From the NCBI GenBank assembly GCA_025965175.1, contig JAOPXL010000210.1:1-47626 (forward strand): DNA of 47,626 bases. Direction: 5' to 3'. Below the pieces are notes generated by a model that saw only the letters and a list, made by a program, of their open reading frames with translations, ran no database searches and was not told where the DNA came from. The translations under genes were made by a program, and so were the position numbers. This DNA is from Aeromicrobium sp. Lineage in GTDB: Bacteria; Actinomycetota; Actinomycetes; Propionibacteriales; Nocardioidaceae. Every line of letters begins with the position of its first letter. Position 1 is the stretch's first letter. Positions 17,036 to 33,422 of the stretch are shown piece after piece.

Positions 17036-18406
17036 TCAGTGCTCCCGGAGTGACTTGAGGCCCGACACACGATCGACGCCGTCGATGTTCCACAGCTCGT
17101 CGAGGAGCGCTCGCGCGTCCCAGCCCTGGCCCGAGAACTCGCAGCAGTCGATGAACTTCGCCTCGAGGTCGTCGACCGACAGCGGCGCCCGCCGGTCGCC
17201 GCGCGGGACGTCGGTACGCATCTCGAGCCGGCCTGCAGGCGTCTCGACGGTGATCGCCGAGTAGGCCTGGTCCCACTCAGCCGGACCGAACGGCGGAACC
17301 TCCGCCGTCGCCCACGTGATCTTGGCGATCAGGGCCTGGATCTCGGGACGCTGCACCTGGTCATCGGTGAACGTCGCCAGCGTCACTCGTCCGTCGAGCA
17401 GCGCGGCGGCGATGACGTACTCGACGCTGAACTTGCCCTGCAGCCCGGTCTGCGGCCGATGGTGCAGCAGAGGATCGAAGCCGCCGGGCTCGAGCACCAC
17501 GTGGACGCTGTCGATCGAGGATGGATCGATTCCGCTGCGCTCGCGCAGGTCGAGTGTCGCGTCTGCGGTGCGATGCGTGTTGTAGCAACAGGGGTACTTC
17601 TTGACGTTGACGCCCGCCTCGAGGAAGGCATCGGTCCCCGAGAGCCGGCCCAGGGCCGCGTCGACGTCCGCACCCGGGGAGAACATCGAGAAGTACCCCA
17701 GGGCCGAGTCGAGCTGATCCACGTCCGCAGTGAATCCATTGGACGCGAGCCGCGCCGCCATCACGGCGCTCTCGGCCGCGAGGCCGGGATGCAACGGCTT
17801 CGTCATGGTGCCGAAGTTCTGGCGGCTGCCGCCTGCCATCGACGCCGCAAGACCGATCGCGCACCGCGTCTGGTCGTCATCGAGCCTCATCAGACGACTC
17901 ACGCCGGCGGCGGCGCCGATGACGCCGATCGTCGCCGTCGAGTGCCAGCCGGCACCGTAGTGGGCACGGACGTCCATCGCGCTGGCGAGCGCCACCTGCA
18001 CGCCAAATCCGACGACGAAGGCCTCCAGCATGGACCGTCCATCGGACCCCTCCTGCTCGGCCGCGGCGAAGATCGCCGGCCACAGAACGACGCTCGGGTG
18101 TCCGTACGTGATGTCCGTGACGTCGTCGAAGTCGAGGGCGTGCCCTGCCGTGCCGTTCAGCAGCGCCGCTGTGGTAGCGCTCGTCCTCGCGCCCGTCGCC
18201 CAGATCGTCGAAGGCCCCTCCGGCAGTGCGCCAAGCGTCCTCTCCAGGATCGTGACAGCGGGCTCCGCCCTGGCTGCAAGAGCGACACCGATGGTGTCGA
18301 CGAGCGTCCGCTTGGCGAGGCCCATGACCTCGTCGCTGACGGGTCCGAGTGGCGCACGCGCATACGCCGAGACGGCCTCGGTCAGTCGTGGAGCGGTGGT
18401 GGTCAT
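17036..18406 (-). CDS. MmgE/PrpD-family protein (first of two)
   Basis: 456 residues. Family signatures are RTLVDTIGVALAAR (about 30-43), the active-site stretch GTAGHALDFDDVTDITYGHPS (about 88-108), the GVSRLM and SMAGGSRQNFGTMTKPLHPG segments, and KKYPCCYNTHRTAD. Known members are 2-methylcitrate dehydratase, cis-aconitate decarboxylase and aconitate isomerase, so dehydration or decarboxylation of a tricarboxylate-like acid is the family expectation. ATG 18406 overlaps the aldolase stop (ATGA). It retains the H-D-F/D-D core, whereas the second copy at 26485-27831 is divergent there, so the two are not simple duplicates. Confidence 0.87.
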   Translation of the reverse strand: MTTTAPRLTEAVSAYARAPLGPVSDEVMGLAKRTLVDTIGVALAARAEPAVTILERTLGALPEGPSTIWATGARTSATTAALLNGTAGHALDFDDVTDITYGHPSVVLWPAIFAAAEQEGSDGRSMLEAFVVGFGVQVALASAMDVRAHYGAGWHSTATIGVIGAAAGVSRLMRLDDDQTRCAIGLAASMAGGSRQNFGTMTKPLHPGLAAESAVMAARLASNGFTADVDQLDSALGYFSMFSPGADVDAALGRLSGTDAFLEAGVNVKKYPCCYNTHRTADATLDLRERSGIDPSSIDSVHVVLEPGGFDPLLHHRPQTGLQGKFSVEYVIAAALLDGRVTLATFTDDQVQRPEIQALIAKITWATAEVPPFGPAEWDQAYSAITVETPAGRLEMRTDVPRGDRRAPLSVDDLEAKFIDCCEFSGQGWDARALLDELWNIDGVDRVSGLKSLREH

Positions 18407-19203
18407 CGTGTTGCCTTTCCGTGCGATGAGTGGTCGGGGACGCCTCGTGCCTCCGACACCGCAGCGGCGAAGCCGCGGGTCATGAGCGCGGTGTCCACCG
18501 ACAGGACGACGAGCTGGACGCCGACATTCAGCCACTTCTTGGCGTCCGCTGGAGTGGCTGCGAAGATCGAGGTGGACCGTCCGGCCGAGGCGGCGCGGGC
18601 AACGATGTTGAGTGCCGCGTCGGTGACGCGTGGGTCGGAGGGTGTCGCCCCCAGTCCCAGCGATGCCGCGAGGTCCATCGGGCCGACGAATATGGAGTCG
18701 AGCCCCTCGGTCGCGGTGATGTCGTCGAGGCGGGCATGGGCCTCCTGACCCTCGACCATCCCCAGCACCGCGACCGAGAGGTCGGCGGTCGTGACGTGAT
18801 CGGCGTCGGCACCGTAGTGGGCGTCGCGCACCCACAGGTGCACGGAGCGCTCCCCTGCTGGAGGGAACCGCGAGGCGGTGACGGCTCGCCGAGCCTCGGC
18901 ACCCGATCCGACGTGCGGGACCAGCAGGCCGTCCGCGCCGCAGTCGAGCACGGCGCCGATGGACTGCTCGTCATTGCCCGCTACCCGCACCACGGCGTAC
19001 ATCCCGGCACCGTGGGCGGCGGCGATCAGCGGGGAAAGCGCCTCCACGCCGAACGGTCCGTGCTCGAGGTCCAGCACGACCAGGTCGAAGCCGGCAGCCG
19101 CCGCGATCTCGACCACCTCGACGCGAGGGACGATCACGAACACGCCGAGCAGAGGGGACGCCCCTTCTTGCAGATGGCCACGCAGGCCCGCGAAGTCACT
19201 CAT
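18403..19203 (-). CDS. HpcH/HpaI-family class II aldolase/citrate lyase-type protein
   Basis: 266 residues. The TIM-barrel pattern is clear: VVLDLEHGPFGVEAL (about 40-54), the Arg in YAVVRVAGND, LVPHVGSGAEARRAV, the metal Glu in MVEGQEA and the metal Asp in IFVGPMDLAASLG. Family enzymes cleave 4-hydroxy-2-oxo acids such as 4-hydroxy-2-oxoheptanedioate or 2-keto-3-deoxyrhamnonate into pyruvate and an aldehyde. ATGA overlaps join it to the acyl-CoA synthetase and to the MmgE/PrpD gene. Together with the aldehyde dehydrogenases and FAH proteins it supports a 2-oxo-3-deoxy acid stage in the pathway. Confidence 0.88.
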   Translation of the reverse strand: MSDFAGLRGHLQEGASPLLGVFVIVPRVEVVEIAAAAGFDLVVLDLEHGPFGVEALSPLIAAAHGAGMYAVVRVAGNDEQSIGAVLDCGADGLLVPHVGSGAEARRAVTASRFPPAGERSVHLWVRDAHYGADADHVTTADLSVAVLGMVEGQEAHARLDDITATEGLDSIFVGPMDLAASLGLGATPSDPRVTDAALNIVARAASAGRSTSIFAATPADAKKWLNVGVQLVVLSVDTALMTRGFAAAVSEARGVPDHSSHGKATR

Positions 19204-21317
19204 GATGCCTCCACGACGAGCGCGTCGAGGACCGCTATGCCCTGTCCGTCGGGCAGGACCCTGACGGGATTGAGGTCGATCGCTTGCAGCGACGCGGCCT
19301 CGCGAACCGCAATCGCCGACATCTCCACGACCAGGCCGACCAGGGCATCGACGTCGGACGGGGGCGCGCCTCGGTATCCCGCCAGGAGTGCGGCGACCCG
19401 GGTGGACCGGATGAGGTCGAGCGCCTCCGCGGCGTCCAGCGGCGCGGGCGCGACGGCCACGTCGTCGAGCAGCTCGGTGAGCACCCCGCCGGCTCCGAGC
19501 ACGATCATCGGGCCGAAGTCGGGATCGATGGTGACCCCGAGGACCACCTCCACCCCGGGCCCGACGAACCGAGAGATGACGACGCCTTCGTATCCGAGCG
19601 GGTCGAGAACACGTCCGCGATGATCGAGATCGGTGAAGGCCTCCGTCAGCGCCGTCTCGTCCCCGACGTCGAGCACGACCAGGTTGTTCTCGGTCTTGTG
19701 CGTCAAGCCTGATCCTGCCGCCTTGAGCACCACGGGATAGCCGACTCTGTCGCCGGCGGCACAAGCCGACTCCACGTCGCTGACGACAATCTCGTCCGAG
19801 AACACGACCCCCCGAGTAGCGAGATAGCGCTTGCTGGCTGGTTCGGACAGCGGGCGGCCGACGACGGCCGCGGACGGCGTCGGAGCGGCAGCTGGTCGGC
19901 GATCGTAGCGATGCCCGGCACGCACCAGGGCACCGACAGTCGCGACGGCGTCGAGAAGGGACGGGATCACCGGTACGCCTGCTGCGGCATACGTCCCCGC
20001 CTCCTCGGCACCGATCGGCGCAGGGCTCACCACGAGGACCGGGAGGGTCGGATGGGCGCTCGCCGTGGCGGCCACACCGTCGGCGAGGGCCTGTCGCCAT
20101 GACTGGACGGGTACGGGCGTGAGGTAGAAGACCATGGCCCCCGTCCCGGCGTCGTCCGCGAGGGCCTTGAGGTTGTCCTCGATCGTCGTCGGTCCGGCCG
20201 CGCCGATGTCGAACGGGTTCATCACCCGGGCGAATCCCGCGATCGGTGCCATCACATTGACTGTCGTGGGCTGGAGGTCTGTCAGCGCCACGCCTTCGTG
20301 GCCCAGCGCATCAGCGAGCAGGATGCTGCCCGCTCCGGACGTGCTGAATCCGACGACAGCCGGTCCCCGGGCGGCCCTTCCGCCGGCCAGCACCGCGGCC
20401 GCGGCCGCGAGGGTCTCGAGCGTCGGGACCGCGACCACATCCTCGGCTGCGAACACCGCGTCGTAGGCGGCGTGAGCGCCCGCGAGTCTGGACGAGTGCG
20501 CCTGAGCAGCGCTCGTCCCCGAGGCCGTCTTGCCGAGCTTGAGCGCGACGATCGGCTTGCCGGCCGTCCGCGCTCGCGCGAGCGCGGATCGGAACGCAGG
20601 ACCGTCGTCGATGCCGTCCATGATCAACGCGATGACACGCGTGTGCTCGTCGTCGATGAAGTGGTCGATGTAGTCGATCAGCTCGAGGTCAACCTCGTTG
20701 CCGCACGACACGAAGGCGCTCAGCCCTGCGCCGTGCTGCTCGAGCAGCGGCACGAAACCACCGAGCATCGCTCCGCTGTGCGACACAAGCGCCACCGATC
20801 CCTGCTGAAGGAGCATCGAGTGCGTGTGGTTGTAACCGAGTGGCAGGGGAACCCGCGTCTCGTACACTCCGTTGCAGTTGGGACCGACGAGGCGTACCCC
20901 GGCCTCACGTCCCGCCAAGGCGAGCTCGTCCTGCAAACGTTGGCCCTCCGGCGTCCCCATCTCGGCGAAACCGCTCACCGCGATGATCGCCACCGAGACA
21001 CCCGCCGCGCCGAGAGCCCGGACAGTGTCGGGGCAGCTTGCTGCGGGGACCATCACCATCGCGACATCCGTGTCGGCCGGAAGGTCCGCGACGTCGGTGA
21101 AGGCAGTGATGCCGCCGACCTCACCGCCTCGCCGGTTGACGGGATGGATGCTGCCCGGGTAGCCGGCGGCCACCAGGTTGCGCAACGGCTGGCCGGAGAA
21201 CTTCGTCGCGTCGTTGCTGGCCCCGACGAGCGCGATTGCGCGCGGGGCGAGCAGGCGCGACACCGCTTCGGTGGAGGTGAGGGCCTCACGCGGGTGGGTC
21301 CGGAGCTGATCGGTCAT
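19200..21317 (-). CDS. ADP-forming acyl-CoA synthetase (acetate--CoA ligase family)
   Basis: 705 residues from ATG 21317, which overlaps the lyase stop as ATGA; an upstream ATG at 21353 is not needed. Domain order: CoA-binding domain (AIALVGASNDATKFSG, about 27-42), ligase domains with LVSHSGAML and the conserved His segment AQAHSSRLAGAHAAYD, then a C-terminal ATP-grasp domain (KRYLATRGVVFSD; YPVVLKAAGSGLTHKTE). These enzymes make a CoA thioester from an organic acid with ATP, giving ADP and phosphate, or run in reverse. In this operon it could activate the starting acid or conserve energy from a CoA product. Confidence 0.9.
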   Translation of the reverse strand: MTDQLRTHPREALTSTEAVSRLLAPRAIALVGASNDATKFSGQPLRNLVAAGYPGSIHPVNRRGGEVGGITAFTDVADLPADTDVAMVMVPAASCPDTVRALGAAGVSVAIIAVSGFAEMGTPEGQRLQDELALAGREAGVRLVGPNCNGVYETRVPLPLGYNHTHSMLLQQGSVALVSHSGAMLGGFVPLLEQHGAGLSAFVSCGNEVDLELIDYIDHFIDDEHTRVIALIMDGIDDGPAFRSALARARTAGKPIVALKLGKTASGTSAAQAHSSRLAGAHAAYDAVFAAEDVVAVPTLETLAAAAAVLAGGRAARGPAVVGFSTSGAGSILLADALGHEGVALTDLQPTTVNVMAPIAGFARVMNPFDIGAAGPTTIEDNLKALADDAGTGAMVFYLTPVPVQSWRQALADGVAATASAHPTLPVLVVSPAPIGAEEAGTYAAAGVPVIPSLLDAVATVGALVRAGHRYDRRPAAAPTPSAAVVGRPLSEPASKRYLATRGVVFSDEIVVSDVESACAAGDRVGYPVVLKAAGSGLTHKTENNLVVLDVGDETALTEAFTDLDHRGRVLDPLGYEGVVISRFVGPGVEVVLGVTIDPDFGPMIVLGAGGVLTELLDDVAVAPAPLDAAEALDLIRSTRVAALLAGYRGAPPSDVDALVGLVVEMSAIAVREAASLQAIDLNPVRVLPDGQGIAVLDALVVEAS

Positions 21318-22492
21318 AGCGGCCTCGCCGGGCTCGAGATGGGCTCTTTCCATGGCGACAGGGCTCCTTCGTACGCAGACGGGCCGACCCGGAAGTGCTG
21401 CGCCTGCTCAAGGGTCTCGACGAACGGCATGTCCATCGCATAGAGGTCGTCGCCCCGGGGGCGGCCGCCGGCCTTGGAGACGTGGCCGAACAACCGATGG
21501 CCCAGGACCTCCTCGGCGAGGACGACCACCTCGATGAGTGCAGGCAGGTCGACGCCGGTGTCGAAACCGGTCTCCTCGAGCAGGTAGATCAGGTCCTCGG
21601 TCGGGATGAGTCCTGCGGCGCGGCCGTTGCCGCAGTACGGGCACCCGCCCATGCCACCGATCGAGGCGTCGAGGATGACGGTGTGCCGGTGGTCGAGGAG
21701 CCGGATGGCCGAGTACGCGGAGATCGGCGCCATGCCCCGCGTGTTGTGCAGGTGCAGGTGAAAGGTATGGATCGACGGCCATCGCCGGACGATCTCGGCG
21801 AGGTCCTCCTCGACCTGGGCAGGGACGTGCCACCCCATCGGGTCGCCCATGAAGACCTTGGTGACAGGGATCCCTGCCGCGTCCCACAGGTCCATCTGCT
21901 GCTCAAGCTTGTCCATCCTCTCGGCGTGGCTGATGTCACCGATCCAGTTGGACCCCCAGGCGGCATTCACGCCGATCTGCGCCTCCGTGGCGCCCGACGC
22001 GACGGCGCTCGCGACGATGCCGGGCCAGGTGGCCATCTCGTCGGCCTGCGACCGGTTGGTGTTGCGACGCACGAAGACGTCGCAGAGGTGAACCAGGGTC
22101 GCGGGCGGCGATCCGTCCAGCGACAACGGCGGCATCCGCTCAGCGCGTCGCTCCACGCCCTTGGCGTTGAGGGCAAGGGCGGTGTAGATGACGCCCTCGA
22201 CCGGCTCGAACGAGTCGATGATCGTGTCGATGTTCGCCATCTGGGGCGTCCACTTCGGGCTCACGAAGCTGCCTGCGACGATCCGCTTCAGACCAGTACG
22301 CCCGATGCTGTCGAGGAGGCGGATCTTGGCCTCGACCGGCACGTCGGGGCTCTCGATCTGCAGCCCTTCGCGCAGTCCCTCCTCGACGACCACCACGGCC
22401 GGGAAACCTGCAGGCCCGACAGCCGCACCAGCGATCGTCGGCCTCGCCACCCGCGGATCGGTCCCGCTGCCACCTTCTGTCGCGCCGGTCAT
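21314..22492 (-). CDS. HMG-CoA lyase-like carbon-carbon lyase
   Basis: 392 residues of the DRE-TIM metallolyase family. An N-terminal extension of about 30 residues precedes VVVEEGLREGLQIE (35-47). The metal His pair lies in FHLHLHNTRGMA (H247, H249), and the loop Cys in GGMGGCPYCGNGRAAG (C284) matches the HMG-CoA lyase signature. HMG-CoA lyases split 3-hydroxy-3-methyl acyl-CoAs; relatives act on citramalyl-CoA-type substrates. It is encoded directly between the CoA-transferase and the acyl-CoA synthetase with 4-nt overlaps, so a retro-aldol or retro-Claisen cut of a CoA thioester is a strong inference. The exact thioester is unknown. Confidence 0.87.
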   Translation of the reverse strand: MTGATEGGSGTDPRVARPTIAGAAVGPAGFPAVVVVEEGLREGLQIESPDVPVEAKIRLLDSIGRTGLKRIVAGSFVSPKWTPQMANIDTIIDSFEPVEGVIYTALALNAKGVERRAERMPPLSLDGSPPATLVHLCDVFVRRNTNRSQADEMATWPGIVASAVASGATEAQIGVNAAWGSNWIGDISHAERMDKLEQQMDLWDAAGIPVTKVFMGDPMGWHVPAQVEEDLAEIVRRWPSIHTFHLHLHNTRGMAPISAYSAIRLLDHRHTVILDASIGGMGGCPYCGNGRAAGLIPTEDLIYLLEETGFDTGVDLPALIEVVVLAEEVLGHRLFGHVSKAGGRPRGDDLYAMDMPFVETLEQAQHFRVGPSAYEGALSPWKEPISSPARPL

Positions 22493-23658
22493 GAGACCTC
22501 CTTGACTGCCGCTACGGGCTCACGCTCGCCCAGCACTTCTACGTTGTGCTCCCCGAGGAGAGGAGGCACATGTCGGACCGCGGCGTACTCGCCGTCGATT
22601 TGGATCGGCAGGTTGACGATCCGGAAGTTCTCGATCCGCGGATGCGCCACATGCGGAAGGGCGCCGATGGCGGCGACCTGCTCGCTGGCGACCACTTGGT
22701 CCAGCGTCTGGATCAAGGTCGTGGGCACACCGGCATCGTTCAGGAGGTCGACCCAGCTCTGGCCGCTGGCGCCACGGGTCGTCGTGGCCAGCTCCTCGAA
22801 CAGCTCATCACGGTGCGCCACGCGATCTGGGTTGAGCAGGAACCGCGGGTCGCGCGTCAGCTCCTCTCGTCCTATGGCGCTGCACAGCAGCTGCCACAGG
22901 TTCTCGTTGCCCGCGGCGATGATGACCCAGTTGTCGGCCGTGGGGAACGCGGCGTACGGATAGATGCCCACGGTGCCCGACCCCAGCCGCGGGGGAATCA
23001 CCTCGTCAGCGAAGTAGCCCATCAGCTGGGCCGGCAACCACATCAGTGCCGTGTTGAGCAGCGACGTGTGGACGTGCGCACCCTCGCCGGTCCGCTCGCG
23101 GGTCCGCAACGCGTCCATGACCGCTATCGCGGTCCACATCCCGGTGCCCTGGTCGAGGATCGACGCCGGGATGCGGGCGGGTGCACGACCCTCCTCCCCG
23201 TTCAGGCTCATGAGGCCGCCGAACGCCTGCATCAACGGGTCGTACGCCGGCGACATGGCTTGCGGTCCCTCCATGCCGAACCCCGTCATGTCGCAGTAGA
23301 TCAGCCGAGGATTCAGTGCCCGCATCTCCTCGTGCCCGAGCCCCATGCGCGCCATGGACCCCGGGCGGAGGTTCTGCACGAACACGTCCGCCGTCGAGAT
23401 GAGCTCGACGAAAGCGGCCTTGTCCTCCTCCTGCTTCAGGTCCAGCACGACACTTCGCTTGTTGCGGTTCAGCCCGGCGAACGTGCAGCCTTCGCCCTCC
23501 CAGAAGGGCGGCCCCCAGCGCCGGGTGTCGTCGCCGACCTCCGGCCGCTCGATCTTGATGACGTCGGCGCCAAGGTCCCCGAGAATCTGCGTCGCGAAGG
23601 GACCCGCGACACTCATGGTCACGTCCACGACGCGCACGCCCTCCAGTGATCCGATCAT
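22489..23658 (-). CDS. Family III CoA-transferase (CaiB/BaiF type)
   Basis: 389 residues from ATG 23658. Typical segments: LEGVRVVDVTMSVAGPFATQ at the N-terminus, LGADVIKIERPEVGDDTR, NRNKRSVVLDLK, and AYDPLMQAFGG with the probable catalytic Asp at position 140. The C-terminal part has VPTTLIQTLDQV. Members pass CoA between carboxylates through an aspartyl-CoA thioester. It shares one base with the lactonase-like gene (TGATG) and four with the lyase gene. Placed before a CoA-thioester lyase, it probably activates the acid that the lyase cleaves, with a donor such as succinyl-CoA. Confidence 0.92.
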   Translation of the reverse strand: MIGSLEGVRVVDVTMSVAGPFATQILGDLGADVIKIERPEVGDDTRRWGPPFWEGEGCTFAGLNRNKRSVVLDLKQEEDKAAFVELISTADVFVQNLRPGSMARMGLGHEEMRALNPRLIYCDMTGFGMEGPQAMSPAYDPLMQAFGGLMSLNGEEGRAPARIPASILDQGTGMWTAIAVMDALRTRERTGEGAHVHTSLLNTALMWLPAQLMGYFADEVIPPRLGSGTVGIYPYAAFPTADNWVIIAAGNENLWQLLCSAIGREELTRDPRFLLNPDRVAHRDELFEELATTTRGASGQSWVDLLNDAGVPTTLIQTLDQVVASEQVAAIGALPHVAHPRIENFRIVNLPIQIDGEYAAVRHVPPLLGEHNVEVLGEREPVAAVKEVS

Positions 23659-24410
23659 CAGACGTACTCCCCTGTCTCGACAACCGCGAAGTCGTGGCTC
23701 GGGATGACGACGCACCCGAGATCCTCGATCTTGGTGAAGCTGTCCATGTAGTCGTGCAGGTTGGTGAACGAGCCGGACGGTATGTGGCTCAGCTTGGCGT
23801 CGCCGTCCCAGTTGGCGTGACTGTCGACGCAGTCGCCAGCCAGGAGGTACGACCGCTCCTCGCCCTGGACCAGGACCCCCTGCGATCCGGGGGTGTGGCC
23901 CGGCAAGTGCACGATCGACAGGCCGGGAGCGAGCTCCACGTCGCCACGGACGGCTGTGATGCGGTCCAGCGCGCGTACCCACGGCGGCACGAGGCCCGGC
24001 AGCCGCTCGAACGCGGCGAGGTTGGGCTCCAGCGGATCCAGCGCGTACGACAGCTCGTCCCGCTGGACGATTATCCGTGCGTTCGGGAACAGGTCGTTGT
24101 TCGAGCAGTGGTCCCAGTGCAGGTGAGTGTTGATGACGGTCCCGACGTCGGCGGGGTCCACCCCGGCACGCTCCAGCACCGCCAGCGGCTCCTGCTCGGG
24201 CGGGCGGACCAGCGTGTAGCCGTGATGCTGCCGGGTGAACTCGACCGACCCCGTGCCGGTGTCGACGATGACCGGGTGGTCGCCCCCCGTGATAAGGAAC
24301 ATGATCATCGCGACGTCGTGCACCTCGCCGAACCCGCGGTGATAGGTGATGGCGGCGGTCGGGAAGTCCTTCAGCGTGCCGACGTGCAGCGCCTGAATTC
24401 GCAGAGCCAT
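23658..24410 (-). CDS. Metallo-beta-lactamase-fold hydrolase (N-acyl homoserine lactonase family)
   Basis: 250 residues. The dinuclear metal motif HLHWDHC gives H96, H98, D100 and H101, followed by the His of LPGHTPGSQG, the bridging Asp in LLAGDCVDS and the final His in IPSHD. The fold and length match the AHL-lactonase family, which opens lactone rings. As it is locked by 1-nt overlaps between an SDR gene and a CoA-transferase gene, it more likely hydrolyses a lactone or thioester intermediate than a quorum signal. A lactone would fit with the Baeyer-Villiger enzyme at the left edge, although that gene is outside the IS border. Confidence 0.88.
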   Translation of the reverse strand: MALRIQALHVGTLKDFPTAAITYHRGFGEVHDVAMIMFLITGGDHPVIVDTGTGSVEFTRQHHGYTLVRPPEQEPLAVLERAGVDPADVGTVINTHLHWDHCSNNDLFPNARIIVQRDELSYALDPLEPNLAAFERLPGLVPPWVRALDRITAVRGDVELAPGLSIVHLPGHTPGSQGVLVQGEERSYLLAGDCVDSHANWDGDAKLSHIPSGSFTNLHDYMDSFTKIEDLGCVVIPSHDFAVVETGEYV

Positions 24411-25219
24411 CAGGACTTGTCCTCGCCCCCGTCGGCTACCAGGACGGCGCCGTTGATGAAGGTTGAACGGTCCGATGCTGCGAACACGATCAGGTTGCCG
24501 AGCTCTTCGGCGGTTCCCCACTCGTGGTCCGGACGGGCGATGTTGCGGCCCCACTCCTTGCGGGTGGCCTTGGCCGCCTCGTCGTCCAGCTCGGTCTTGG
24601 CCATCTCGCGCTCCCACTTGTCGAAGCGCTCGTCGGTGTAGACGAGACCCGGCACGACGCAGTTGACCCGGATGTTGTACTCACCGAGCTCGGTCGCCAA
24701 GACCTTGCTGAGCCGGATCTCCGCCGACTTGGCCGGCCCGGTGCAGGACGAGCGGAACGGCGGCGGCATCACCTTGATCCCGGTCTCCCCGGCCACGTTG
24801 ATGACCACGCCGAAGTGCTGCTCGATCATCATGGGAGTGAAGCGCTGCGTCAGCCGGAACTGGGCGAAGAAGTTGATCGCCATGCCGTGCGTCAGCTCCT
24901 CGTCGGTCACCTCCAGGAAGGGCTTGTACGTACCGGTGCCGGCGTTGTTGACCAGGATGTCGATGCGTCCGTAGGTGTCCTTCACGTACTTGACGAGGGT
25001 GTCGAGGTCCTCGACCTTGGTCACGTCGATCGAGATCGTGTCGACCATCGTGCCGGTGTCCTTCAGGATGCCCGCCGCGGCCTTGGCCAGCGCGTCCTCG
25101 CGACGACTGGCGATGACGACCCGAGCGCCTTCCTGCGCGAACAGCCGGCACGTCTCCAGGCCGATGCCCGCGCTGCCTCCTGTGACGACGACGACCTTGT
25201 CCTTGAGCTTGAGATCCAT
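24410..25219 (-). CDS. Short-chain dehydrogenase/reductase-fold protein with altered active site
   Basis: 269 residues. Cofactor motif TGGSAGIG (13-20), NNAG (91-94) and a C-terminal INGAVLVADGG are classical SDR features. However, the catalytic YxxxK reads TGPAK, so Tyr is replaced by Thr 160 with Lys 164 kept. The usual Ser region NxSS reads NVAGETG, so the catalytic Ser is also missing. GAAGGAG 6 nt before ATG 25219 supports the start. It may be a reductase with shifted residues (Ser 157/158 are near), a lyase or isomerase on this fold, or a structural partner. It lies 52 nt after the acyl-CoA dehydrogenase gene. Confidence 0.85.
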   Translation of the reverse strand: MDLKLKDKVVVVTGGSAGIGLETCRLFAQEGARVVIASRREDALAKAAAGILKDTGTMVDTISIDVTKVEDLDTLVKYVKDTYGRIDILVNNAGTGTYKPFLEVTDEELTHGMAINFFAQFRLTQRFTPMMIEQHFGVVINVAGETGIKVMPPPFRSSCTGPAKSAEIRLSKVLATELGEYNIRVNCVVPGLVYTDERFDKWEREMAKTELDDEAAKATRKEWGRNIARPDHEWGTAEELGNLIVFAASDRSTFINGAVLVADGGEDKS

Positions 25220-26432: not shown

Positions 26433-26484
26433 GTGTTCGTTCACTCCGTCGTTGGTGGTCGTGGTGATGGTCTGGCCCGGCGGC

Positions 26485-27831
26485 TCAGCGCTGCGCGTGA
26501 AACTCCCGCAGCGCCGGATGCAGCACCTCGCTGCAGGGGGTCGACTCGTCCGCGGCGAAAATCGCGTCCACGATCCCCGTGGCTCCGTTGCCGAGGAGCT
26601 CGCGCGTCACAGACCGCTGCTCGTCGGCGTCGCGGAAGTAGTAGGTCTCGGGCAGCTCGGAGGCCCGGCAGGTGTGCTCGACGCCGTTGCTGGTCACCGT
26701 GACGACCGCGTCCCGAAAGTCCAGGTCGCTGTCGGGGACTACCTCGAGCCGGTCGGCCAGTCCGCACACGGCACTGTCGTCCCGCTGCCTGTAGTCGTCG
26801 AACGTCAGGGTGCCGTGCGTCAGCAGCTGCGCCGTGGCGAAGCGGACGCTCGACAACGCCGAGGTGATGGACGGGTACGGCGGCTTGCTCTGCGTGCCGG
26901 GGAAGCGTGCGAAGTGCTCGTTCATGCGGACGGTCACCTGGTCGACGGGCGCGCCGGAGAGTCGCTGGTGGAGCTCGCGTGCGGCCAGGGCCACCGCCAT
27001 GTTGTCGCCCAGGGTCGGCAGCGCCTTCGTCCAGACGTCGCGGATCATGTGCTCGGTCGGCGCATGCTGCAGGGCGGCCGGCACGTCGTCCAGGTGCGCG
27101 AACATCCGCAGGAAGCCGTTGGTCGCGTCGAGCGCTCCCGGCCCGGCGGTCATCCCGGCCCGCGCCGCCAGTGCGTAGAGCAGGCCGTCGCGTGCCGCAC
27201 CGGGATTGTGCAGACGCCAGTCCTCGCCACCGGCGCCGACACTGTGGAGTGAGCCGCGACCGACCAGCAGTGCACCACTCACCGCGTGGGCGGTCTGCTC
27301 CGGTGTCAGCCGGGCTGCCCGGCTCGCCGCGGCCGCGGCACCGCCGGTCCCGAAGTTGGGGCTGGGCCGGCGACCCGTCGCCATCATCGCGAGCGCGATC
27401 TCTCCCTCGCCGCCCAGCCAGACCGTCATGGCGTAGCCCGCGATCAGGCCGTCGATGACCTCGCCGTACGTCGCGCCCGTCTCGATGCCAGCAGCGACGG
27501 CCGCCGGGACCACGAAGCTGCCGGGGTGGCTCCACGAGCTCATCTCGGTGTCGTCCTGGAAGCGGGCGCACACGGCCGCGGCATTGGCCTGGACGGCATC
27601 GGCCGCACCGAGGCCGCGCCCGCTGAACCACGCGACGTGGTCACCCTCGCCGGCGCCCAGCTCGAACAGCTCGGTCGACCCGGGGACTGTGTCTGCTGCG
27701 AGGGCGAGGGTGACGGCGTCCGCCAGCAGGACGCGCGCATAGGCACGGTTCCTCGGGTCCTCGAACGAGGCGCCAGCCACGAAGTTGGTAGCCGATCCCA
27801 GGGCGGTGGATGCTGCGATGACCGTGGTCAC
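26485..27831 (-). CDS. MmgE/PrpD-family protein (second, divergent)
   Basis: 448 residues. It follows the family plan, with LLADAVTLALAAD near the N-terminus, an active-site-region counterpart in QANAAAVCARFQDDTEMSSW and SHPGSFVVPAAVAAG, then NFGTGGAAAAASRAARL and HNPGAARDGLLYALAARAGM in the centre. The canonical H-x-x-D-F-D-D stretch is replaced by ARFQDDTE, so the reaction may differ from 2-methylcitrate dehydratase. It overlaps the LivF-like gene by 4 nt and precedes the acyl-CoA dehydrogenase by about 50 nt. Its place at the head of the enzyme part of the operon suggests an early step. Only the family is secure. Confidence 0.8.
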   Translation of the reverse strand: MTTVIAASTALGSATNFVAGASFEDPRNRAYARVLLADAVTLALAADTVPGSTELFELGAGEGDHVAWFSGRGLGAADAVQANAAAVCARFQDDTEMSSWSHPGSFVVPAAVAAGIETGATYGEVIDGLIAGYAMTVWLGGEGEIALAMMATGRRPSPNFGTGGAAAAASRAARLTPEQTAHAVSGALLVGRGSLHSVGAGGEDWRLHNPGAARDGLLYALAARAGMTAGPGALDATNGFLRMFAHLDDVPAALQHAPTEHMIRDVWTKALPTLGDNMAVALAARELHQRLSGAPVDQVTVRMNEHFARFPGTQSKPPYPSITSALSSVRFATAQLLTHGTLTFDDYRQRDDSAVCGLADRLEVVPDSDLDFRDAVVTVTSNGVEHTCRASELPETYYFRDADEQRSVTRELLGNGATGIVDAIFAADESTPCSEVLHPALREFHAQR

Positions 27832-28532
27832 AGGTAGTCCTCCGACAGTGCGAGCTCACGGATCTCGGCAACGTCTCCGCTGCGTCTCAGGGCGCCGGCG
27901 CGAAGGACGTAGCCTCGCGAGGCGAGCTTGAGCGCCGGCCGGGCCATCTGCTCGGAGATCAGCACCGCCATCCCCTGGGCCTGGACGACCGAGATGGCCG
28001 CACTGGTGTCGCCGATCGCCACCGGCGAGAGGCCGAGGAACGGCTCGTCGAGCAACAGCAGCTTGGGCCGGGCCGTCAGGGCGCGGGCGATCGCGACCAG
28101 CTGCTGCTGGCCGCCGCTGAGCGTGCCGGCCCGTGCGGTGCGCCGCTTCGAGAGGAGAGGGAAGGTGTCGAACAGCCAGGCGACGGACGCCTCGCGGTCC
28201 TTCGCGCCCATTGTGTAGCCGCCCGCGAGGATGTTCTCCTCGATCGTCAGGTTGGCGAACACCCGTCGGCCCTCCGGCGAGATCCGGATGCCCAGCTTGG
28301 CCCGGTCGGCCGTCGACATCGACGTGACCTCGCGACCGTCGAAGGTCATACGACCCTCTGCGGTGGGCACCATCCCCATGACGGCGTTCATGACGCTGGA
28401 CTTGCCCGCGCCGTTGGCGCCGACGATAACCACCGTCTCCCCCGTCGCGACCTCCATGTCGAGCGAGCGCACCGCCTCGATGCCGCCGTAGCGGACGCAG
28501 AGACCCTCGATCGTCAGCAGTGACTCAGCCAC
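27828..28532 (-). CDS. Branched-chain-type ABC transporter ATP-binding protein (LivF-like)
   Basis: 234 residues from GTG 28532, with GAGGAG 7 nt upstream. Walker A GANGAGKSS (38-46), Q-loop region ISPEGRRVFANLTIEENI, ABC signature LSGGQQQ, Walker B LLLLDEP and the switch His position changed to ISEQMA, as is common in LivF proteins. It powers import with the LivM-LivG fusion and LivH in this operon. Its first 8 nt overlap the fusion gene and its stop overlaps the MmgE/PrpD start, so transport and catabolism are translated together. Confidence 0.92.
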   Translation of the reverse strand: MAESLLTIEGLCVRYGGIEAVRSLDMEVATGETVVIVGANGAGKSSVMNAVMGMVPTAEGRMTFDGREVTSMSTADRAKLGIRISPEGRRVFANLTIEENILAGGYTMGAKDREASVAWLFDTFPLLSKRRTARAGTLSGGQQQLVAIARALTARPKLLLLDEPFLGLSPVAIGDTSAAISVVQAQGMAVLISEQMARPALKLASRGYVLRAGALRRSGDVAEIRELALSEDYL

Positions 28533-30444
28533 GGTGGATCTCCTCTTCGCGATGGGTTCCTGCCTCCGGTTCGGCCAGCACGGACGGCTCGACGAGGTCC
28601 GCGATGTCGGCCAGCTCCTCGTCGTCCGCGACACCGAGGTACGCGGTGATCACGTCGGGGTTGGTGAGGACGACCTCCGGGGTGCCGTGAGCGAGCTCCT
28701 TGCCGGTGTCCATGACCAGCAGGCGAGGGCAGATCCGTCGCACGAGGTCCATGTCGTGCTCGACGAGCAGCACGGCGCTGCCACGTTCCGCGGCCCACTC
28801 GACCAGCTGGTCGATCCGCCCACGCTCGGAGACCTCGAGGCCGGCGGCCGGCTCGTCGAGCAGCAGCACGGCCGGTCGAGTCGCCAGGGGCAGCAGCAGC
28901 CCGAGGAGCTTCTGGAGCCCGTACGGGAGATCGCCGGCGATGTCGTCCAGACGGGCGTCGAGGCCGGTCTCCCGGAGCAGCTCGTCGAGCTCCTCGTCGC
29001 TGACCCAGCGCTTGCTGAACGCCTCCGCGCGCCGCAGGTTCTCCCGCACGGTCGCGCCCGAGAAGACCGAGGTCTGCTGATAGCTGCGGGCGATGCCATG
29101 ACGGCTCATCGTCTGCGGTGAGCTGCCGGTGAGCGCCTTGCCCGAAAGCGTCACGCGCCCGCCGGACGGCACCATGGCGCCGGAGATCATGTTGATGAGC
29201 GTCGTCTTGCCCGCGCCGTTCGGGCCGATGACGCCGAGGATGTCGCCCTTGCGCAGCTCTAGGGAGACGCCGTCCACCGCGGCGACACCGCCGAAGCGCT
29301 TGGCCAGCGCGTCGACCGAGAGCACCACCTCCCCTGTCGTGACACTCTCGCGACGCGTGAGGGTGTTCGGGACCTGCGTCGTCGTGTCGCCCTCGGCGCT
29401 TCGCGGCTCTGCTCTGGCCCCGGTGTCCGGGGGACCGGGACGGGATACCGCACGGGCGAGGAACTTCGCCGCGTCAACGACGAGGCCGGTGAGTCCGCGC
29501 TTCGCAAAGAGCGTGACGAGGATCAACGCTGCTCCCAGAAGGAGCTGCGAGTACTGCGCCTGCGACGCAAAAACGTGAACGAGCCAGGCCAGGATTAAGG
29601 CGCCGACGGCAGGACCCAGGAAGGACGGCCCGCCGATCACGGACGCCGCTACGTGGTTGACGGCGCTCAGAGGGCCGAAGGAGTCCGGGTGCGCGTTGCC
29701 GAGCTGGTTGATCAGGATCAGACCGGCGAGTCCAGCCACACCGGCCGCACTCACGAAGGCATATGTCTTGTACCGCCACGGCTGGAGGCCGAGGCTCGCC
29801 GCGAGCGGCTCGTTCTCCTCGATGGCAGCGAAGTGGCGCCGCCACACGATTGACACGGTGGCCGCCAGGGCCATGCCCACCAGGGCCACGATGACGGAGA
29901 ATCGAACGAGATCTCCACCAGCGGCGAACTGGGTCGCGCCGAGCGTTGCCGGCGGGATCCCCGAGAGGCCGCTGCTTCCGCCGAGCGGACCCTCCGCTAT
30001 CACGACGATGAGGACGACCACCTGTGCGAGGACGAACGTAACTAAGGCGAAGTAGGTGCCGCGTAGTCGCAGGAGGACCAAGCCGAGCGGGATCGCGAGC
30101 ATGGCGGGGACCACCACGCAAGCCACGATGAGCACGATCGCGTTAGAGGTGACGTTCGTCGCCACGAGCGCAAGCACATACCCGCCCACCGCCATGAACG
30201 GCGGCGAGGCGAACGACAACAGGTTGACCCGCAGCAGGAGCCAGACGTGCATCGACGCCAGCATCGTGATCAGAACGGTCGGGACGAAGGAGATGAGGAA
30301 CGGGTCCGCCGTCAGCTTCGGGACGAAGAATCCCAGAGCGACCAGCAGGAGAGTGATTCCAGGGAGCAGCAGGACGTGCCGACTCCGACGCCGCACGGCA
30401 GAGCTCGTCGTAGACGTGGTCGAGGGTGCGAGGTTCTTAGGCAT
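28525..30444 (-). CDS. Fused ABC permease and ATP-binding protein (LivM-LivG fusion)
   Basis: 639 residues combining two subunits. Residues about 25-335 form a LivM-type permease with roughly ten hydrophobic segments and the EENEPLAASLGL cytosolic loop. A hydrophilic linker (about 336-370, RPGPPDTGARAEPRSAEG) joins it to a LivG-type ATPase with Walker A GPNGAGKTT (407-415), the LPYGLQKLLGL signature variant and LLLDEPAAGLE. Subunits are separate in the classical system. The fusion keeps one permease with one ATPase at fixed ratio. ATG 30444 overlaps livH by 8 nt. Confidence 0.92.
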   Translation of the reverse strand: MPKNLAPSTTSTTSSAVRRRSRHVLLLPGITLLLVALGFFVPKLTADPFLISFVPTVLITMLASMHVWLLLRVNLLSFASPPFMAVGGYVLALVATNVTSNAIVLIVACVVVPAMLAIPLGLVLLRLRGTYFALVTFVLAQVVVLIVVIAEGPLGGSSGLSGIPPATLGATQFAAGGDLVRFSVIVALVGMALAATVSIVWRRHFAAIEENEPLAASLGLQPWRYKTYAFVSAAGVAGLAGLILINQLGNAHPDSFGPLSAVNHVAASVIGGPSFLGPAVGALILAWLVHVFASQAQYSQLLLGAALILVTLFAKRGLTGLVVDAAKFLARAVSRPGPPDTGARAEPRSAEGDTTTQVPNTLTRRESVTTGEVVLSVDALAKRFGGVAAVDGVSLELRKGDILGVIGPNGAGKTTLINMISGAMVPSGGRVTLSGKALTGSSPQTMSRHGIARSYQQTSVFSGATVRENLRRAEAFSKRWVSDEELDELLRETGLDARLDDIAGDLPYGLQKLLGLLLPLATRPAVLLLDEPAAGLEVSERGRIDQLVEWAAERGSAVLLVEHDMDLVRRICPRLLVMDTGKELAHGTPEVVLTNPDVITAYLGVADDEELADIADLVEPSVLAEPEAGTHREEEIHRG

Positions 30445-31306
30445 CGATAATCGTCCTGTGTCCGAGAAGTCCCGAGGGCCGCGCGACGAGCAGCACGAGA
30501 ATCCCTGTGAAGAGAATGAGAGGAGCCCACGATCCGCCGACGTATGTCCCGACGAAGGCTTCGACGAGACCGACGAGCACCGAGGCGATGACGGCGCCGG
30601 GGAGGCTGCCGAGCCCTCCGAGGATGACCGCCAGGAACGAGATCATCAGCACGTGCTCGCCGACGAACGGCGCGAGCGAGAACTGGGGCGTGACAAGGGC
30701 GCCGGTCAAACCGGCGAGCCCCGTCGCGATGGCGAACGCCATGGGAAACAGCACCTTAGGACGCATGCCCATCGCCACGGCCATCTCGCGATCGTCAGTC
30801 AGCGCCCGCAAGGCGTTGCCGACCTGCGTCTTGTAGAGCAGGAGGTAGACCGCTGCGATTGCCAGCCCCGCTACGGCGATGATCATGACCCGCGCGTGCG
30901 GCACGAAGACGCCTCCAAAACGAAACGTGCCGGTCAGGCCGCCCTCGAACTGCGCGGCCTGTGCGCCGAAGAGCGAGAGCATCGCGGCGCCGCCGATCAA
31001 GGACGCACCGAGGGTCATCACGATGGTCGCCAGGTGGTCATCGATGCGTCGTTCGATGACAAACAGCTCGAACACGTACCCGATGGCCGCCGTCCCCAAC
31101 ACTGCGACGATGACGCCGAGCACATAGGGAAGGCCCACCTCATTGGTTATCCAGTACGCGAGGTAGCCACCGACGACGTAGAACGCGCCGTGAGCGAAGT
31201 TGATGACACGCAGGATGCCGAAGGCGAGTGAGAAACCAAGCGCCATGAGGGCGTACTGCGCGCCCAGGGTGAGACCACCGATCGTGGTCTGTATGAATTC
31301 ACCCAT
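30437..31306 (-). CDS. Branched-chain-type ABC transporter permease (LivH-like)
   Basis: 289 residues, almost entirely hydrophobic, with about eight membrane segments. It starts TTIGGLTLGAQYALMALGFSLAFG and includes the LivH-type loop NALRALTDDREMAVAMGM before FPMAFAIATGLAGLTGALV. AGGAGG lies just before ATG 31306. It forms the membrane channel with the LivM part of the fusion protein. Transporters of this class carry many carboxylates and aromatic acids besides amino acids, so the name does not fix the substrate. Confidence 0.93.
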   Translation of the reverse strand: MGEFIQTTIGGLTLGAQYALMALGFSLAFGILRVINFAHGAFYVVGGYLAYWITNEVGLPYVLGVIVAVLGTAAIGYVFELFVIERRIDDHLATIVMTLGASLIGGAAMLSLFGAQAAQFEGGLTGTFRFGGVFVPHARVMIIAVAGLAIAAVYLLLYKTQVGNALRALTDDREMAVAMGMRPKVLFPMAFAIATGLAGLTGALVTPQFSLAPFVGEHVLMISFLAVILGGLGSLPGAVIASVLVGLVEAFVGTYVGGSWAPLILFTGILVLLVARPSGLLGHRTIIDA

Positions 31307-31337
31307 GCTGAGTTCCTCCTTGAGGGCGTGGGGCGGA

Positions 31338-31373
31338 GGGGAGTCCAGCCCGACGGGCCGAGCCGGACTCCCC
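31338..31373 (-). promoter_or_regulatory. Stem-loop between the binding-protein gene and livH
   Basis: GGGGAGTCC (31338-31346) and GGACTCCCC (31365-31373) are perfect 9-nt complements around an 18-nt loop that can itself pair (GCCC with GGGC). It begins 6 nt after the binding-protein stop. No T-run follows on the minus strand, so it is better read as a transcript-stabilising or partial-termination hairpin that lifts binding-protein levels above the permease than as a full terminator. Confidence 0.5.
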
Positions 31374-31378
31374 CGGGA

Positions 31379-32581
31379 TCACTTGTTGGCTTCGAGCTGC
31401 GTGAAGGTGGCCGGCTGGCCACCCTTGATCACACCCATGTTGAACGGCCAGGACATCTCTTGGTTGACCCCGAACTCCTCCTCGCCGGTGTAGACGCCCT
31501 GTCCCAGCAGGTCGTCCTTGAGATCGTGGGAGCGCATCGCCTCGGCGACGGCCTTGGTGTCGTTGATCGTCCCGGCCTCGGTGATCGACTCCAGCAGGGT
31601 CCGCGCACCGGGGATCCACCCGAGCGAGATGCCGGTCGCTTCCATCCCGGTTGCCTTCTTGAATGCCGGCTGGATCTTCTTGACCTCGTCGCTGCCGAAG
31701 TTGACCGGGGCGTAGTAGAAAAAGTCCTTCATGTTGTTCAAGCCAGCGACCTTGGTGATTTCGCCCGTGCTGTCGCCACCGAGGCGGGCGAACGTTCCGT
31801 CGTACCCGGCCTGCCGCAGCTGCTTGATCATTGTTCCGACATCACCTGCGGGGCTCGACGCAAAGTCGATCAGGTCAGGCTTGCTGCGAAGGAGCCGCGA
31901 CACCACCGGAGCGAAGTCCTGCGTTCCTCGCTGGTAGGTGTCCCGGGCGACGTCGAGGCCGGCCTTCTTGTACTGCTGCTCGTCGACGATCGCGATGTCA
32001 TCACCGCTCTGGTCGTTCGGGGCGATGACCTTGACGTTCTTGAAGTTGAACTCCTTCTTGGCGGCCTCGATGATCGGCCCGGCCCAGACGAACGGCCCGG
32101 GTCCGAGGTGGAAGACCAGCGGGTACTTCTTCTCAAGCGCGTCGCGGCCGAATCCGTTGGCCGCCAGCAGCATGTCGTATCGCGCGGCGACAGGCTTCAT
32201 GCCGGTCAGCTCGGTCGCGCCCAGGGGGCCGATCACGAACTTGATGCCCTTGGAGGCGAACTCGGTCGCACCGGCTGCCGCACCCTGGCTGGTGTAGCCG
32301 GTGTCGTAGCTGGAGACCTGGACCTTGCATTTCTTGTCCCCGACCTCGAGACCACCCTCGGCGTTGGCCTCCGAGGCGACGAACTTGGCGGTCGCCTCCA
32401 TGGAGAGGCCGAAGTCGGCGGCCGGACCCGTCAGAGGTCCCAACGTGCCGATCTTCAGGACACAGTCACCCCCTGACGATCCGGACGCGCCCGACGTGGC
32501 ATCCGAGCCACAGGCAGCGAGCGCCGGTCCGGCGACGAGCGCCGCGGCCACCAACAGCAAACGCGTTCTGGTTGTTCTCAT
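31379..32581 (-). CDS. ABC transporter substrate-binding lipoprotein (LivK/Leu-Ile-Val-binding type)
   Basis: 400 residues. The signal peptide ends at the lipobox ALAAC (Cys 24), and the mature protein has the type I periplasmic-binding fold, starting CVLKIGTLGPLTGPAADFG and continuing VSSYDTGYTSQGAAAGATEF, IAPNDQSGDDI and FARLGGDSTGEI. AGGAGG lies 5 nt before ATG 32581. As the surface receptor of the operon's transporter it decides which compound enters. The pocket cannot be interpreted without a structure. It follows the enoyl-CoA hydratase gene by 61 nt and is followed by a strong stem-loop. Confidence 0.92.
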   Translation of the reverse strand: MRTTRTRLLLVAAALVAGPALAACGSDATSGASGSSGGDCVLKIGTLGPLTGPAADFGLSMEATAKFVASEANAEGGLEVGDKKCKVQVSSYDTGYTSQGAAAGATEFASKGIKFVIGPLGATELTGMKPVAARYDMLLAANGFGRDALEKKYPLVFHLGPGPFVWAGPIIEAAKKEFNFKNVKVIAPNDQSGDDIAIVDEQQYKKAGLDVARDTYQRGTQDFAPVVSRLLRSKPDLIDFASSPAGDVGTMIKQLRQAGYDGTFARLGGDSTGEITKVAGLNNMKDFFYYAPVNFGSDEVKKIQPAFKKATGMEATGISLGWIPGARTLLESITEAGTINDTKAVAEAMRSHDLKDDLLGQGVYTGEEEFGVNQEMSWPFNMGVIKGGQPATFTQLEANK

Positions 32582-32642
32582 GCGGTCCTCCTAAGGACTT
32601 CTTGCAAGGTGAGTTGAACTGGTGATTGCTCCTCTGGACCGG

Positions 32643-33422
32643 TCAGCGACCCGTCCAGCGCGGTTCCCGTTTCTCCACGAAGGCGCGAATGCCTTCCTGG
32701 CGGTCCTCGCTGAGGTAAGGATTCGGCCCGACGTTCAGCCGAAGCGCCTGATGCACCGAGAGCTCCCATCCCTTGGTGGTCATCTCCTTGTATCGCCGCA
32801 AGGTCAGGGGCGCGTTTGCGACGATCCCCCTGACGTACGTCTCGGCCTCGGCCCGCAACGACTCGCTGGGCACGACCTTGTTGAACAGTCCCCAGCGGAG
32901 CGCGTCCGCGGACGACAACGGCTCGCCGGTGTAGAGCATCTCGAGCGCGACGGCGCGTGGGATCAGTCGAGGCAGCAGCACCGTGGCGTAGTTGGCACCC
33001 ATACCGCGCTTGGCCTCGGGCATGCCGAGGTTGGCGTGATCCGCGGCGATGCGCAGGTCGCACGCCAACGCCAGCTCACAGCCGCCGGCGAGGACCGGAC
33101 CATTGATCGCGGCGATGACGGGCTTGTAGGTCTCGAGGACCACCTCGAAGAGATTGCGCTCCGCTCCGGTCATCGGCATCGGGAATCGACCGCCTCGCTT
33201 GGCGATGTCGTCGAATTCTTTGAGGTCGCCGCCAGCACAGAATGCCTTGTCGCCGGCGCCCGTCAGCAGGATCGCCCAGACGTCCGGGTCCTCCCCTGCC
33301 TCACAGAAGCGCTCGACGAGATCATGGGTGGCCGACAGGTTGAGCGCATTGCGCCGCTCCGGCCGGTTGATCGTCACGTAGGCCACGTGATCCCGGACCT
33401 CGTACAGAACTTCTTGATCCAC
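32643..33422 (-). CDS. Enoyl-CoA hydratase/isomerase (crotonase family)
   Basis: 259 residues from GTG 33422, with GAGG 7 nt upstream. Oxyanion-hole segments AFCAGGDLKEF and AGGCELALACDLR are present, and both catalytic glutamates of true hydratases appear to be kept (in MPEAKRG and in ALEMLYTG). It would add water to an enoyl-CoA, probably the product of the acyl-CoA dehydrogenase. It is the first gene of the 26-gene minus-strand run and faces the IclR gene across a 177-nt control region, so its promoter probably serves the entire run. Confidence 0.92.
   Translation of the reverse strand: MDQEVLYEVRDHVAYVTINRPERRNALNLSATHDLVERFCEAGEDPDVWAILLTGAGDKAFCAGGDLKEFDDIAKRGGRFPMPMTGAERNLFEVVLETYKPVIAAINGPVLAGGCELALACDLRIAADHANLGMPEAKRGMGANYATVLLPRLIPRAVALEMLYTGEPLSSADALRWGLFNKVVPSESLRAEAETYVRGIVANAPLTLRRYKEMTTKGWELSVHQALRLNVGPNPYLSEDRQEGIRAFVEKREPRWTGR

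Follow-up and report, generated by a model that had tools for sequence, protein, structure and literature searches.

We describe a window of 47,626 nucleotides (contig JAOPXL010000210.1, assembly GCA_025965175.1) from the 2.96 Mb draft genome of an Aeromicrobium sp., which carries on its minus strand a long operon containing a divergent lyase of the 3-hydroxy-3-methylglutaryl-coenzyme A (HMG-CoA) lyase type, here called the HMGL-type lyase. On balance, we favour the view that this operon takes up and breaks down a 2-substituted succinate, R-CH(COOH)-CH2-COOH, and that the lyase cleaves 2-hydroxy-2-R-succinyl-CoA to acetyl-CoA and the 2-oxo acid R-CO-COOH. The operon probably serves a pathway of a known kind with a variant set of enzymes. 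Gene order, protein families, conserved residues, co-occurrence and tree placement were computed, and from these we infer the reactions, the substrate class and R.

In the proposed pathway, a branched acid with a four-carbon backbone would be imported, possibly delivered as a lactone, and the MmgE/PrpD protein PrpD1 would interconvert stereoisomers of the 2-substituted succinate. A family III CoA-transferase (CaiB) would transfer CoA from succinyl-CoA onto this acid, an acyl-CoA dehydrogenase (ACAD) would produce a 2-R-fumaryl-type ester resembling mesaconyl-C4-CoA, and a crotonase-type enoyl-CoA hydratase (ECH) would hydrate it to the tertiary alcohol 2-hydroxy-2-R-succinyl-CoA, which resembles citramalyl-CoA. 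The HMGL-type lyase, using Arg41, the metal, His247/His249 and Cys284, would then release acetyl-CoA and R-CO-COOH, while downstream oxidoreductases and an HpaI-type aldolase would handle what R brings.

The genes form a dense minus-strand series from 33422 down to 4432, with many overlaps of 1-4 bases. An earlier note on this DNA described CaiB, the lyase and an ADP-forming acyl-CoA synthetase as consecutive and overlapping, and both coordinates and Pfam domains agree: CaiB (22489..23658; CoA_transf_3, 421.7 bits) and the lyase (21314..22492; HMGL-like, 50.9 bits) overlap by 4 bases, and the lyase and the synthetase (19200..21353; ATP-grasp_5, Succ_CoA_lig) by 40, or by 4 if the alternative synthetase start at 21317 is used. 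The dehydrogenase and the hydratase with both glutamates are in the same run, as the note stated, the crotonase being parted from the remaining enzymes by four ATP-binding cassette (ABC) transporter genes. Its general idea, that a branched acid is activated with CoA and then cleaved, has good support, and its itaconate/citramalate logic was right, the roles matching those of a described cluster (PMC12290011).

The HMGL-type lyase

Among curated models the lyase was best matched by hydroxymethylglutaryl-CoA lyase (155.3 bits), with homocitrate synthase at 20.8 bits, although the score lies under the 246-bit cut-off of the HMG-CoA lyase model PRK05692. The predicted structure (mean pLDDT 93.3) gave its best alignment with the HMG-CoA lyase of Acinetobacter baumannii (6NDS, with CoA and 3-methylmalate; Z 31.9). 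Z scores against HMG-CoA lyases were 28.5-31.9, while those listed for homocitrate, isopropylmalate and related synthases were at most 22.8 (homocitrate synthase, 22.8). In a tree of 103 rows, the lyase branch (86 rows) was separated from 17 classical HMG-CoA lyases with support 100/100. In a second tree, whose synthase outgroup was limited to three NifV homocitrate synthases, the branch joined the HMG-CoA lyases to the exclusion of NifV (93/96, just below the value that the tool marks with a star). LeuA matches of the Aeromicrobium genome were fragments or citramalate synthase and were left out. Identity as a homocitrate or isopropylmalate synthase, the outcome that the earlier note had set against its own proposal, was rejected on models, fold and tree (in the tree, for NifV only). 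The lyase does join the HMG-CoA lyases; it stands there in a branch of its own and not as a plain member.

A related idea is that the enzyme catalyses a synthesis, or acts as an aldolase on a free acid, like isopropylmalate, citramalate or homocitrate synthase. It shares its fold with these synthases and has Glu at the place of Asp42, presumably as in homocitrate synthase. We nevertheless consider this very improbable, since the lyase groups with HMG-CoA lyases, Cys284 is kept in 85/85 members of the branch, and the setting, with a CoA-transferase, is catabolic.

A search with two peptide patterns gave 205 relatives, of which the best 80 supplied the surveyed loci, so that all counts cover close relatives; one of them (L029) is a near-identical congener. 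Residue statistics were taken from 85 rows (83 loci, 84 distinct sequences), namely 78 of the 80 loci (without L034 and L036) plus L022, L023, L109, L110 and L111; L023 duplicates L029, and L109 and L036 are one contig. The features common to the window lyase and HMG-CoA lyases (PRK05692, human HMGCL and 6NDS) are the fold and, in human HMGCL numbering, Arg41, both metal histidines (His233 and His235), Cys266, D204 and E279, whose roles we take to be those they have in the human enzyme; these residues are kept in the window and in 85/85 relatives. In contrast, human E72 is replaced by V, A, N, I or H, and N275 by M, L or Q, in 85/85 members (V and L in the window), and D42 is E in 67/85, including E in the window itself, and D in 18/85. 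All three were retained in 15/15 HMG-CoA lyases from classical loci. In the branch the GGCPY loop is also longer by two inserted residues and the protein is extended at its C-terminus; neither feature occurs in the 17 classical rows. To judge from its sequence, with a score below cut-off and two active-site positions lost, the window lyase is not a plain HMG-CoA lyase. Its closest named relative is from the Aeromicrobium metagenome bin RYN_213 (95% identity). The genome has another HMG-CoA lyase, placed among the classical ones in the tree, whose match counts one TGA.

These observations bear on a glutarate-backbone route similar to that of leucine or mevalonate, in which a 3-hydroxy-3-alkylglutarate would be activated by CaiB or made by the block, and the lyase would free a 3-oxo acid as HMG-CoA lyase does. 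The lyase is closest to HMG-CoA lyases by sequence and fold, and substrate overlap is possible. Rv2498c-type lyases, which we take to be CitE-like and of another family than the window lyase, provide the example. A single bifunctional enzyme of this type can take both (R)-HMG-CoA and (S)-citramalyl-CoA (PMC6689899), and is thus a precedent for a dual substrate. We regard the glutarate route as unlikely, because E72 and N275 are replaced throughout the branch, the genome has the separate classical HMG-CoA lyase, and no carboxylase was found among the genes of the run scanned for families; for the same last two reasons the leucine logic of the earlier note is not needed.

PrpD1 and the methylsuccinate pathway

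The gene that best identifies the pathway, absent from the earlier note, is that of PrpD1 (17036..18406), proposed here as the isomerase of the 2-substituted succinate. PrpD1 carries 7/7 catalytic residues of IDS epimerase (H85, D88, H99, Y145, H150, K198 and K266), which is also its nearest solved relative (247 bits), and so has both members of the two-base epimerase pair, His99 and Tyr145. H85, D88, H99, H150, K198 and K266 are listed as conserved in this enzyme, with Tyr as second base (PMC12290011). In the same work, the itaconate clusters of Cupriavidus necator and Pseudomonas aeruginosa serve methylsuccinate: the MmgE/PrpD protein is a (S)-(R)-methylsuccinate isomerase, an acyl-CoA dehydrogenase yields mesaconyl-C4-CoA, and a hydratase and a citramalyl-CoA lyase then give acetyl-CoA and pyruvate (PMC12290011). 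The residues of PrpD1 are therefore those of enzymes with known succinate-backbone substrates, which argues against the glutarate-backbone route. This evidence, with the two lost active-site positions of the lyase, led us to drop the plain leucine/HMG-CoA reading as first choice.

The seven residues were found in 10/10 PrpD1-type proteins checked in the core clusters defined below (L030, L033, L038, L039, L040, L042, L043, L059, L069 and the lyase-adjacent protein of L084), and likewise in the PrpD proteins of L047 and L096. The methylcitrate-dehydratase-like proteins of L051, L062 and L095 are without Y145 and K198. PrpD1 itself scores 60.6 bits with the methylcitrate-dehydratase model, against a cut-off of 950.

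This last result concerns a citrate-like route, in which a tricarballylate- or methylcitrate-like acid, activated by the ADP-forming synthetase, would pass through a citryl-CoA-type ester to acetyl-CoA and a 2-oxo diacid; the chemistry is that of our proposal with R = carboxymethyl. The overlap of the synthetase with the lyase fits this route, as do the methylisocitrate-lyase-like genes near the lyase in 12/80 loci (only the one in L095 was scored, 396 bits, above cut-off); though set down against the 2-substituted succinate, these genes neither support nor exclude it. Since PrpD1 is epimerase-like and not methylcitrate-dehydratase-like, and the synthetase was matched in only 4/17 core clusters, the citrate-like route seems improbable to us.

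A second MmgE/PrpD protein, the divergent PrpD2 (26485..27831, minus strand; PF03972, 80.8 bits), has 2/7 of the catalytic residues, and of the two-base pair only the His. Its counterpart in L030 differs at the other five positions in the same way (C, F, M, R and E), and the role of PrpD2 may be new or non-catalytic.

Activation, dehydrogenation and hydration

CaiB has the CoA_transf_3 domain and the aspartate of the YD motif (Asp140), which is presumably catalytic. Among solved proteins, succinate-hydroxymethylglutarate CoA-transferase is closest to it (252 bits), a point in favour of our proposal and also of the glutarate-backbone route.

The acyl-CoA dehydrogenase (25272..26444, minus strand), proposed as a 2-R-succinyl-CoA dehydrogenase, has Glu at 248 (NVERV), presumably the position of the base in isovaleryl-CoA dehydrogenase, and Pro369 at the site that is filled by the YEGT Glu in the aligned dehydrogenase 3pfd. 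Dehydrogenases from Rhodococcus, Paraburkholderia and Sphingobium whose genes neighbour CaiB are 56-59% identical to it. When seven dehydrogenases were aligned, the NxER Glu and an API motif at the usual base site were common to the proteins of the window, these three genera and L039; the Halobaculum protein combines the Glu with VPV, and that of L031 combines Asp with APG. The earlier note had the base in the right place, but its position is no pointer to isovaleryl-CoA, because it is common to the dehydrogenases of the CitE-type clusters of Rhodococcus and Paraburkholderia.

The crotonase (32643..33422, minus strand; ECH_1, 196 bits), proposed as a 2-R-fumaryl-CoA hydratase, has both glutamates, E116 in GGCELAL and E136 in MPEAK, which we take to match the corresponding residues of the rat enzyme. 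Its gene adjoins the lyase gene in L031, L032, L033, L034 and L111.

Between the dehydrogenase and CaiB genes lie those of a short-chain dehydrogenase/reductase (SDR; 24410..25219) and of a lactonase-like hydrolase of the metallo-beta-lactamase (MBL) fold (23658..24410), both on the minus strand. AiiA and 4-pyridoxolactonase are nearest to the latter, all matches being far below cut-off. A 2-hydroxyparaconate lactonase has been proposed in the P. aeruginosa cluster (PMC12290011), a parallel to the MBL protein. The compound concerned could be a lactone formed from a hydroxylated 2-substituted succinate.

Comparison with CitE-type clusters

All five roles of the Ict-Mcd-Msi-Ich-Ccl cluster (PMC12290011) are matched in the window run: CoA-transferase, dehydrogenase, MmgE/PrpD isomerase, hydratase and C-C lyase. 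The window differs in having a crotonase for the MaoC-type hydratase and the HMGL-type lyase for the CitE-type lyase. Its operon is also much longer than the C. necator and P. aeruginosa clusters and has another transporter, the match being one of role and family and not against the published sequences. A RipB/Ich MaoC-type hydratase was not found in the window, and the best match in the draft genome, on another contig, scored 66.5 bits against a cut-off of 340. For CitE-type lyases, the run has only a member of the HpaI/GarL type, the remainder of the genome not having been searched for CitE. That gene, an HpcH/HpaI aldolase (18403..19203, minus strand), was not counted as a citramalyl-CoA lyase because the four models listed for it are HpaI- and GarL-like aldolases and none is CitE.

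The Rhodococcus rhodochrous GD02 plasmid (L121) has consecutive genes for a CitE-type CoA ester lyase, MmgE/PrpD, CaiB, MaoC and acyl-CoA dehydrogenase. Dehydrogenase, PrpD (with 7/7 residues) and CaiB are 56%, 43% and 38% identical to those of the window, whereas the lyase is CitE-type, the hydratase is MaoC, and no HMGL-type match was found in 19 kb of the locus. Similarly, Paraburkholderia largidicola has MaoC, dehydrogenase (58% identical to the window), CaiB and a CitE-type lyase, with no HMGL-type match at the cluster. A Sphingobium plasmid locus has the dehydrogenase and CaiB, and no gene annotated as a lyase in 25 kb. The CitE-type clusters lend the proposed pathway independent support. 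From their gene content, we read the HMGL-type and CitE-type clusters as cases in which one lyase may replace another at the same step.

Conservation of the gene set

In Planosporangium mesophilum (L030), 18 genes, from the binding protein to DUF6282, have the order of the window; 17 of them are 57-84% identical to it, and the small open reading frame (ORF) is 48% identical over 116 residues. This conserved order indicates that the gene set is not due to chance. A 21 kb locus of Pseudonocardia alaniniphila (L059) has the crotonase, transporter, dehydrogenase, SDR, MBL, CaiB, lyase and PrpD1, with no other genes of the set matched, and these were taken as the core set. At least three of the seven core partners, at thresholds that we set after the first locus maps, were found in 16/80 lyase-branch loci (one being L029) and in 0/20 controls, each a 20 kb locus centred on a classical HMG-CoA lyase gene from a related genome. 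When the thresholds were relaxed, 15/80 loci and 0/20 controls had both CaiB and PrpD, and among the controls ECH was matched in 8/20 and CaiB in 1/20.

The 16 loci and L084 make up 17 core clusters. A CitE-type match is absent from 15/17, and 13/17 have neither CitE- nor HpaI-type genes, which leaves the HMGL-type lyase as the candidate for the C-C lyase. Mixtures of the two toolkits were seen in Mycolicibacterium (L031), Jiangella (L032) and Mycobacterium (L034), where lyase and crotonase are accompanied by genes of a tripartite tricarboxylate transporter and by a hydratase resembling RipB/Ich. In L043 (2962-7335) and L084 (3-3579) a second module, composed of CaiB-type, CitE-type, cyclase-family and another PrpD-family genes, lies beside the HMGL-type core.

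The lyase branch was found in Actinomycetota, Chloroflexota, Pseudomonadota, Acidobacteriota and Rokuibacteriota. Dehalococcoidia-type Chloroflexota (L096 and L106) have it with few core partners in the stretch examined. Among 58 relative genomes searched, the lyase was matched with E <1e-200 in one genome (G003) besides its own, and another (G049) has a member 52% identical; it was found in none of the other 35 same-genus genomes searched, several of which are incomplete. In a phylum-wide draw, 4/396 genomes, including its own, had a match past 1e-60. This scarcity suggests a rare accessory cluster. A Rhodococcus USK10 plasmid locus, with a lyase 53% identical and a core reduced to a 35% CaiB and a 29% ACAD, was not used.

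Clues to the product from neighbouring genes

Within one clade, a gene of the benzoylformate-decarboxylase type lies upstream of the core on the same strand in four of five loci (L039, L040, L069 and L084; none in L043), scoring 677 bits in L039 and 686 in L040, over the cut-off of 493. A 3-hydroxybenzoate-6-monooxygenase-like gene is present in L039, L043, L069 and L084, and gentisate-dioxygenase-like and FAH-family genes in L069 and L084, all below their cut-offs where scored. The decarboxylase-type neighbours suggest a 2-oxo acid product, an arylglyoxylate, which, if released from an arylmalyl-CoA, would feed the decarboxylase-, monooxygenase- and gentisate-type genes of that clade. They also count against the glutarate-backbone route.

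LeuC/LeuD-type dehydratase genes occur with CaiB and the lyase in 5/80 loci, all betaproteobacterial (L057, L066, L078, L090 and L092), an arrangement that fits 2-R-malates; L052 has only a remote LeuC/LeuD-type match (29%). In the window itself, the downstream genes and the lactonase-like MBL give only hints to R.

Other genes of the operon

The transporter is of the branched-chain type and consists of a periplasmic binding protein (31379..32581; Peripla_BP_6), a permease (30437..31306; BPD_transp_2), a permease fused to an ATPase (28525..30444) and a second ATPase (27828..28532, the start being our choice). After PrpD1 come a protein of the Asp/Glu/hydantoin racemase family (16188..17030), an Ldh_2 family 2-hydroxyacid dehydrogenase (15184..16191), an iron-type alcohol dehydrogenase (13904..15187), the small ORF (13329..13763), which has no Pfam match and whose place is the same in L030, a DUF6282 protein (12466..13341), 75% identical at the same operon position in Planosporangium, and an aldehyde dehydrogenase (11009..12469), nearest to the succinate-semialdehyde type and below cut-off. 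All of these are on the minus strand. Further down the run are, in order, an aldo/keto reductase, a major facilitator superfamily transporter, two FAH-family proteins, a zinc alcohol dehydrogenase and a second aldehyde dehydrogenase.

Acetylating acetaldehyde dehydrogenase and 4-hydroxy-2-oxovalerate aldolase, both above cut-off, are encoded on the plus strand (36159..38140). Their homologs follow DUF6282 in L030, where the aldolase is only partly matched because the locus ends there. A transposase-like ORF is present at 3343-3996, and a tRNA-Thr gene at 38652-38727 lies beyond the opposite flank. Given these flanks and the presence of the lyase in 1/36 other same-genus genomes, the cluster is a possible genomic island.

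Weighing the proposal

Several observations weigh against the degradation of a 2-substituted succinate as proposed here. At the chosen thresholds, 64/80 lyase-branch loci have fewer than three core partners; no CaiB match was found in 17/80, and CaiB occurs without ECH or ACAD matches in 38/80, some of these loci being on short contigs. L043 and L084 hold a CitE-type gene besides the lyase, and L031, L032 and L034 a RipB/Ich-type hydratase in addition to the crotonase. The PrpD tyrosine is replaced elsewhere, by Arg in L048, L055 and L080, by His in L107 and by Phe in the second PrpD of L084. Two of the benzoylformate-decarboxylase-type genes score below the 493 cut-off (447 in L069 and 408 in L084), and three loci outside the clade have weak matches to this decarboxylase (24-29%), which were not counted. 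Ich and Ccl are no homologs of the window hydratase and lyase, so that their equivalence is argued from position and chemistry. As far as seen, the clusters of Rhodococcus and Paraburkholderia are uncharacterised; no lyase-branch enzyme with known activity was found, and in the open-licence literature we recognised no paper that deals with a lyase of the HMGL type in a cluster of this kind. Finally, methylsuccinate does not account for the long stretch downstream, with the aldolase, Ldh_2, the alcohol and aldehyde dehydrogenases and DUF6282.

The loci with CaiB and without ECH or ACAD also favour a mixed block, in which CaiB and the lyase would act on one acid, the dehydrogenase and hydratase on another, and a sugar-acid-like pathway would follow downstream; the four transporter genes separating the window hydratase from the other enzymes point the same way. 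There is little probability in this arrangement, in our judgement, because ECH adjoins the lyase in L031-L034, the same set appears reordered in other families, and the Rhodococcus unit has the same roles.

Returning to the 2-substituted succinate, a broader proposal can be made more tentatively, and we would not lean on it as on the first. The HMGL-scoring branch may be a family of 2-alkyl- or 2-arylmalyl-CoA lyases whose metal site is altered and which arrived independently at the step carried out by CitE-type citramalyl-CoA lyases, and the clade with benzoylformate-decarboxylase-type genes may represent an aerobic arylsuccinate route via arylglyoxylate. If this is true, many genes that probably bear the name hydroxymethylglutaryl-CoA lyase have the wrong one, and a family of enzymes in which the metal site of HMG-CoA lyase has changed is open to direct testing. 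The methylsuccinate pathway would then have a parallel version, in which two steps are carried out by other enzyme families, perhaps with wider substrates.

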